Shown one piece after another: positions 1 to 3,650 of a DNA stretch of 9,497 nt. A program made the position numbers and the translations under genes. Position 1 is the stretch's first letter, and every line of letters begins with the position of its first letter. The notes beneath the pieces are model-generated. The model saw nothing but the letters and a program-made list of their open reading frames with translations. It searched no databases and was not told the origin of the DNA. The stretch is from a bacterium (GTDB taxonomy: Bacteria; T1Sed10-126), in assembly GCA_003554945.1 (NCBI GenBank), contig PWHN01000023.1, forward strand, positions 1 to 9,497, given 5' to 3'.

Positions 1-112
1 ATATCTTATTTTCTCATTCTCATCCCGCCTCCAGCGGGACTCCGAGGTATGTATTCTTCAAAACAGGCCCCTCCAGGGCCTTGAAGAATACATAAATCCG
101 AAAATAAGACAT
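1..112 (+). repeat. Structured three-way-junction element, copy 1 (left edge may be cut by the window)
   Basis: Seen in sequence: outer helix P1 pairs 4-13 with 100-109, and probably 1-2 with 111-112. Hairpin P2 pairs 23-28 with 34-39 and has the loop CTCCA. Long hairpin P3 pairs 48-61 with 81-94 (14 perfect pairs), has a four-base bulge AACA (62-65), an inner stem 66-70/76-80 and a second CTCCA loop (71-75). Unpaired joining segments are TCATTCTC (14-21), TCCGAGG (41-47) and AATCC (95-99). The same layout and joining segments recur in inverted orientation at 184-321 with different stem sequences. Strand is given for the orientation in which TCATTCTC reads 5' to 3'; the transcribed sense is unknown. 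P1 may continue upstream of base 1. I do not recognise a described riboswitch, ribozyme or REP family. It could be a structured RNA or a non-autonomous mobile element. Confidence 0.8.
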
Positions 113-136
113 GACCTATCTTTCTCTATGCGTTTA

Positions 137-176
137 TTTTTGATCAAGTAGGGATTGGGTCCTACTTTGTTAAAAA
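137..176. other. Isolated imperfect hairpin between the two structured elements
   Basis: Bases 137-152 pair with 161-176 around an 8-base loop (153-160). There are seven perfect pairs next to the loop (146-152/161-167), one mismatch (145/168), then two wobble pairs and five A-T pairs. The T-run lies on the 5' arm and the A-run on the 3' arm, the reverse of an intrinsic terminator. On the plus strand the two imperfect positions (142/171, 144/169) are G-U pairs; on the minus strand they would be A-C mismatches. This weakly favours a plus-strand transcript. No function is assigned. Confidence 0.5.
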
Positions 177-183
177 AACAGTA

Positions 184-321
184 GTTCTGAGGACCGATGT
201 GTTTCTGACGGATTTATAATGACCTCAAACCCCAGGATGGGGTTGTTTTGAGGTCTTTATACCTCGGAAGTGGCCTGGAGGGCCACGAGAATGATGTCAG
301 AAATATATCGGTTCTCAGAAC
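184..321 (-). repeat. Structured three-way-junction element, copy 2, inverted, just upstream of rbfA
   Basis: Seen in sequence: outer helix P1 pairs 184-198 with 307-321 (15 pairs, one a plus-strand G-U at 192/313). A 3x3 internal loop follows, then 202-209 pairs with 296-303. P2 pairs 270-275 with 281-286; its loop reads CTCCA on the minus strand. P3 pairs 215-219 with 257-261 and 221-228 with 248-255. It has the bulge AACA (minus-strand reading of 244-247), an inner stem 229-233/239-243 and a five-base loop. Minus-strand joining segments TCATTCTC (294-287), TCCGAGG (268-262) and AATCC (214-210) are identical to copy 1, while most stem bases differ. The element ends 23 bases before the rbfA ribosome binding site, so if transcribed it would sit in that mRNA's leader. 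The P3 hairpin (221-255) resembles a terminator but has only a weak T tract after it. Confidence 0.8.
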
Positions 322-3557: not shown

Positions 3558-3650
3558 GTCATTCCCGCGTAAGCGGGAATCCAGTGGCGTTGAATTTCTA
3601 ACGGTCGAAGGTCAAAGTCACTGGATTGCCCAATCAAGTTGGGCAATGAC
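3558..3650. repeat. MITE-like palindromic element with two hairpin arms
   Basis: The element starts with GTCATT and ends with its complement AATGAC. The left arm is a perfect 8-bp hairpin, ATTCCCGC/GCGGGAAT (3561-3568 with 3573-3580, loop GTAA). The right arm is a perfect 9-bp hairpin, ATTGCCCAA/TTGGGCAAT (3625-3633 with 3639-3647, loop TCAAG). Inside these, AATCCAGTG (3578-3586) and CACTGGATT (3619-3627) form a 9-bp inverted repeat. GTCATTCCCGC...GCGGGAATCCAG is an intergenic repeat type that I know to be common in many bacterial genomes, where copies occur between genes as non-autonomous elements. No transposase is present here. Confidence 0.75.

Follow-up and report, generated by a model that had tools for sequence, protein, structure and literature searches.

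A foldable three-way-junction module present in dozens of intergenic copies in bacterial genomes of at least three phyla

The two inverted copies at the start of the window, the 9,497-base stretch of DNA analysed here, belong to a hitherto undescribed family of short DNA modules that can fold, which occurs in dozens of copies per genome and spans at least three phyla. The module spans about 105–150 bases and consists of three stems, invariant junctions and GGA-containing loops. On the strand that we call R, the reverse complement of the orientation used in the original prediction, its layout is 5′-P1-GGNTT-P3-CCTCGGA-P2-GAGAATGA-P1′-3′. The explanation that we favour, tentatively and with slightly less than even confidence, is that the module is the structure-selected core of mobile repeats and is probably recognised as folded single-stranded DNA.

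Position 1 of the window is the start of a contig (C114:1) of a 2.2-Mb assembly. Judging from their translations, we take the genes of the window to be rbfA (357–737), a DHH phosphoesterase gene, truB, ribF, rpsO, pnp and an ftsK-like gene. Copy 1, of family H, occupies positions 1–112 with R on the minus strand (covariance model R1, E 1.5e-32). Read on the plus strand, it comprises P1 and P1′ (1–13 and 100–112), the segment TCATTCTC (14–21), P2 (22–28/34–40, loop CTCCA), TCCGAGG (41–47), P3 (48–61/81–94) with an AACA bulge (62–65), the inner P3 (66–70/76–80, loop CTCCA) and AATCC (95–99). Its outer P1 runs on to position 120, the partner and the left end of the element having been lost at the contig end. 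Copy 2, of family A, occupies positions 184–321 with R on the plus strand (R1, E 5.7e-28). On R it comprises P1 (184–209/296–321), the J1/3 segment GGATT (210–214), P3 (215–261; outer pairs 215–228/248–261, inner pairs 229–233/239–243, loop AGGAT 234–238, bulge 244–247), the J3/2 segment CCTCGGA (262–268), P2 (270–286; pairs 270–275/281–286, loop TGGAG 276–280) and the J2/1 segment GAGAATGA (287–294). Between the modules, positions 113–183 form the interior of a miniature inverted-repeat element (MITE) that is common to other TIR1 elements of the genome; the right terminal inverted repeat of this TIR1 MITE, GAAACCGCAAAACTTTAG, lies at 325–342 on the plus strand and the left one beyond the contig end. 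The window element is a TIR1 element carrying two modules in opposite orientation. The core pattern matches twice in the window, against an expectation of 0.00.

The original prediction had described a three-way junction of P1–P3 in both inverted copies, and both fold in that manner. Its figure of 16 compensated base pairs proved exact when read pair by pair (5 of 6 in P2, 5 outer and 2 inner in P3, 4 of 8 in P1), as did its single unpaired P3 position. In the orientation of that prediction the copies fold with z values of -9.1 and -11.2 relative to shuffled sequence. Either strand folds much better than shuffles do, and R is the more stable in energy (-52.8 versus -46.5 and -77.5 versus -64.9 kcal/mol).

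Covariation across many copies indicates that the folded strand is what is conserved. In an alignment of 79 rows (A3), 92.6% of the cells pair and double changes are present in 33 of 34 pairs; the covariation score is 0.797, compared to 0.172 for shuffles and at most 0.133 for slid controls. A larger alignment of 103 rows (A4) gave 92.3% paired cells and a score of 0.847 (shuffles 0.172, slid controls at most 0.147), with a count of further pair types that was not above shuffles. A3 and A4 were both fitted to the model and favour it, but the same picture is seen in the plain sequences. The selection on a folded single strand that had been proposed from the two window copies is therefore supported by scores of 0.80–0.85 against 0.17 for shuffles and no more than 0.15 for slid controls. 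In 74 representatives sharing less than 80% identity, the columns of the unpaired core (GGNTT, CCTCGGA, GAGAATGA and the GGA of both loops) are 92–100% identical; the exceptions are the N of GGNTT, which is free, and the first G of the P3 loop (85%). This constant core amounts to about 25 letters. The stem columns of the same set are mostly 30–75% identical, and the C-G pairs closing both hairpin loops are nearly fixed. R is the folding strand, since G·U mismatches exceed A·C on it by almost three to one (58 versus 20, p 2e-5). G·U pairs account for only about 2–3%, and P1 of many copies retains an A·G/G·A tandem. This mismatch evidence fits RNA and single-stranded DNA alike. Because the stems vary freely without losing their pairing, and the unpaired parts are almost constant, we infer, without binding data, that something probably recognises the folded strand, presumably a protein.

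The module was then found to be abundant in this genome and outside it. A DNA search located 25 related places in this genome, and the exact core pattern 10, with four different P2 stems, compared to none for the reversed pattern. Covariance model R1, built from six copies, placed 60 matches at E <= 0.01 in the 2.2 Mb, and a broader model, R2, 55 at E <= 1e-6, so that this genome holds some 55–60 copies overall. These genome-wide statistics rest on searches and on sampled stretches. The true number may be higher because the assembly breaks at module copies, several of which lie at contig ends (C114:1, C34, C106, C7, C41, C100, C63 and C113). R1 had no match in 58 other genomes, only one of which belongs to the same family, and R2 found no copy in the second of the only two genomes of this phylum that were examined. 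A scan with the exact pattern over one genome per species returned 39 loci, chiefly in Nitrospirota and Spirochaete MAGs, most of which were upheld by the covariance model. At E <= 1e-6, seven Nitrospirota and Spirochaete MAGs hold 14–86 copies each (22, 86, 29, 31 in the Spirochaete MAG, 33, 21 and 14) and three more carriers hold 3 each. R2 matched 47 of 295 Nitrospirota genomes, with at most 13 candidates scored per genome, and Desulfospira gave one locus with a weak match only (R2, E 6e-10). The expectation of further copies was thus met both in this genome and in relatives, other phyla included. Exact-pattern searches of viral contigs and blastn searches of plasmids and phages gave no match. 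An archaeal host was considered and set aside: a contig assigned to Thermoplasmata (L089) carries a copy almost the same as family G here and is probably misbinned, and a Desulfurococcales locus (L100) had no covariance match. No Rfam family, the hammerhead included, matched at the gathering threshold, and nothing credible appeared at E-value thresholds, consistent with an undescribed family. Literature searches, limited to open-access papers, found no description of the module.

The copies are intergenic; where a few seem to overlap genes, these are short ORFs that, in our view, the element itself creates. Several repeat families of this genome (A–H), which differ in outer sequence, contain the module, and the elements are observed to have the properties of MITEs: they are multicopy and non-coding, carry no transposase of their own, and have terminal inverted repeats and target-site duplications. 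TIR1 elements end in CTAAAGTTTTGCG...CGCAAAACTTTAG with 7-bp duplications (TTTCTAA at L003, TAAATTA at L004), and TIR2 elements in GGCTCTGTTGAAATCC with an 8-bp duplication (TTTTGTAA at L061); a duplication is not visible in every copy. The same module is thus found inside elements with unrelated ends. In Nitrospirota, several copies are bounded by ends such as TGTCCGGTAAA...TTTACCGGACA. The Spirochaete MAG copies that were read have no outer repeat and no terminal inverted repeats, and their outer P1 differs from copy to copy. The mobile-repeat half of the original prediction, which had offered a structured RNA or a mobile repeat, is well supported by this genomic context of MITE-like ends and target duplications in several families; the choice between RNA and single-stranded DNA is not settled.

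Several variants were encountered. P2 hairpins of one family occur inside modules of another (L013, L133, L061 and L065), as if exchanged as cassettes. In a TIR1 element of about 427 bases (L122, 1868–2290; also L120 and L121), a larger branched domain, kept in five copies, takes the place of P2; the element has an RNA fold z of -12 on R in L122 and no Rfam match. The idea that this domain carries a gene was dropped, as only further structure and no convincing gene was seen in it. In two Nitrospirota copies (L096, 579–719 and 7361–7503) the P2 arm is interrupted by the insertion of another palindrome, GGGGTCCCCGAAAAGTC...GACTTTTTGGGGTA. TIR2-like elements contain a CCCTCTCCC...GGGAGAGGG palindrome at L175, L182 and L185, and a plain hairpin in place of the module at L178 and L195. 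Insertion of the elements into terminators was also discarded, copies being rarest between convergent genes (11 of 107).

Within this genome the module is observed to be more constrained than the arms of its MITEs, with about three-fold less divergence. Divergence from the consensus was 3.4% in the module and 11% in the alignable arms for family A, and 4.4% and 12% for family C. Singletons alone gave 1.9 versus 3.2% for A (p 0.06), 2.0 versus 6.2% for C and 1.8 versus 6.9% for G. Gene conversion between copies, or recombination of the arms, could contribute to this difference. Hairpin self-correction cannot account for the constraint, since within families the unpaired core is constrained as much as the stems. 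This weighs on the possibility that the module has no function and that its palindromes are merely kept perfect by template-switch repair and by hairpin exchange between copies. Such processes would agree with the abundance of double changes, the rarity of one-sided intermediates and the exchange of P2 hairpins between families; however, the unpaired core letters, which have no correcting partner, are nearly invariant across phyla, and the core diverges less than the MITE arms within families. We consider this improbable. We give equally little credence to the bare module being itself mobile and jumping into different MITEs. The identical module in elements with unrelated ends, the varying outer P1 of the Spirochaete MAG copies and the plain hairpin that replaces the module in some TIR2-like elements could be read in this way, and module-less sites (L004, L006 and L178) had raised the suspicion of independent insertion. 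However, deletion across short direct repeats (TATCTT, ACGG) accounts for the TIR1 copies that lack one or other module. Three comparisons between genomes were made: remnants of a deletion were seen in one, and in the other two the module was present or absent as part of a larger unit that includes arm sequence. Insertion of the bare module therefore remains unsupported.

The orientation of the copies bears on the nature of the folded strand. The R strand is C-rich in the 1.5-kb flanks of 72 of 108 loci (27 of 35 in this genome, 42 of 67 in Nitrospirota), and the bias persists when coding direction is regressed out (intercept -0.042 ± 0.008), the loci not being fully independent. With 20-kb flanks in this genome, R is C-rich at 18 of 25 loci (p 0.02–0.04). 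A preference of R for the C-rich strand is thus suggestive. Relative to the neighbouring genes R is sense in 26 cases and antisense in 42 (p 0.07), so that sense is not favoured.

The same genome harbours a REP family of the form GGATT-hairpin-AATGA, with 35 matches and 8 different stems in 435 kb, compared to no match in the same 435 kb for six control flank pairs; the GGATT and AATGA flanking bases are those of the module. An inverted pair of such repeats lies just upstream of rpsO in the window (about 3559–3649). Y1 transposases were found in 9 of the 12 genomes searched. Three carriers had no match, a weak absence as these are MAGs, and the module adjoined none of the 20 Y1 loci that were read. 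No transposase or RAYT gene sharing the ends of the repeat, a point that the original prediction had asked to be examined, was found, DDE families lying outside our search. RAYT/Y1 transposases are not supported as a requirement, and we rejected them as the driver. Two Y1-transposase-like genes of this genome (L203 and L210) have short direct repeats of their own (AAACGACAATCGACACCTCCGTCCC and GTTTAAAGTTTAACTCTGACACT, respectively).

In the explanation that we favour, the module would be the functional core of several families of MITEs. R would fold by itself and be recognised in the folded state, presumably by a protein, the stems being able to drift provided that pairing is kept. It would most likely act as single-stranded DNA exposed in replication or transposition, like REP/IS200-type hairpins and integron attC sites, and might help its carrier MITE to persist or spread. 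Protein recognition, the benefit to mobility and the choice of single-stranded DNA over RNA are all inferences. We rank single-stranded DNA first on five grounds: R leans to the C-rich strand, shows no preference for the sense direction and contains seemingly few G·U pairs; the flanks resemble those of REP repeats; and there is a precedent in hairpin elements that work on the lagging-strand template (PMC6006769). Several points speak against it. An RNA would show the G·U excess as well. With long flanks the bias in orientation becomes weak, and it could stem from copies having been lost and not from a mechanism. The duplicated target sites suggest that double-stranded DNA is moved by DDE transposition, and no single-strand transposase is common to the carriers, bearing in mind the weakness of absence from MAGs.

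A close second, which we regard as a serious but lesser possibility, is that the module works as RNA, R being transcribed and its junction and GGA loops binding a protein, for which CsrA is one candidate. The G·U excess on R, the G·A/A·G tandem recurring in P1, the conservation, for the most part, of GGA in both loops and the stable R-strand fold of the 427-base relative would all suit an RNA, and 19 of the 23 carriers have csrA. In addition, the P2 loops CAGGAUG and CAUGGAUG, which are common, are similar to the CsrA consensus (ACARGGAUGU). However, R does not favour the sense direction of its neighbours, and the MITE arms, where a promoter would sit, are poorly conserved. As for CsrA in particular, P3 loops are often GTGAT, several family A copies have CCGAG, AAGAG or ACGAG in P2, and four multicopy genomes have no detectable csrA, which incompleteness of the MAGs could explain. 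Data on transcription and CsrA binding are absent. CsrA is not supported as a requirement, and a CsrA sponge, dropped as a separate explanation, is retained only as part of the RNA possibility.

More broadly, the module may define a cross-phylum class in which the folded single strand is the selected unit, housed in unrelated MITEs, with hairpins as cassettes, and read by a widespread, unidentified protein whose target would be a three-way junction bearing GGA in its loops; we put this forward as a conjecture that could well fail. The roughly 25 core letters, together with the covariance model, provide a handle for finding the recogniser and for testing in which form, folded single-stranded DNA or RNA, selection acts on mobile repeats.

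Integron attC sites are recognised by structure as a folded single strand, with variable stems and a few fixed unpaired bases. ERIC, bcr1 and similar intergenic repeats of 100–160 bases have a conserved secondary structure but are each known from one group only. The module elements of this genome resemble MITEs in being short and gene-less, with many intergenic copies, terminal inverted repeats and 7–8 bp target duplications. However, a MITE family is defined by its ends, whereas the module core recurs across unrelated ends and several phyla and is the better conserved part. Like REP/REPIN repeats and IS200/IS605 hairpins (RAYT, TnpA-REP), the module is a palindromic element with many copies between genes, in which the feet are fixed and the stems vary. 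REP-type elements are single hairpins with a 5′ GTAG-type guide, located next to a Y1 gene (PMC6006769), whereas the module is a three-way junction with two hairpins on a long stem and no adjoining Y1 gene in the loci read. The Neisseria dRS3 repeats (ATTCCC-N8-GGGAAT), the target of a phage integrase (PMC3898611), are also palindromic and have the same flanking bases as the window repeat at 3559–3649, but they are 20 bp long with one hairpin. Bacterial palindromic repeats are mostly single hairpins confined to one lineage; the module, by contrast, is a single junction architecture that has no Rfam model and shows very strong covariation. Its unpaired letters stay the same across a phylum from which few genomes are sampled, Nitrospirota and a Spirochaete MAG, and one genome can hold as many as 86 detected copies.
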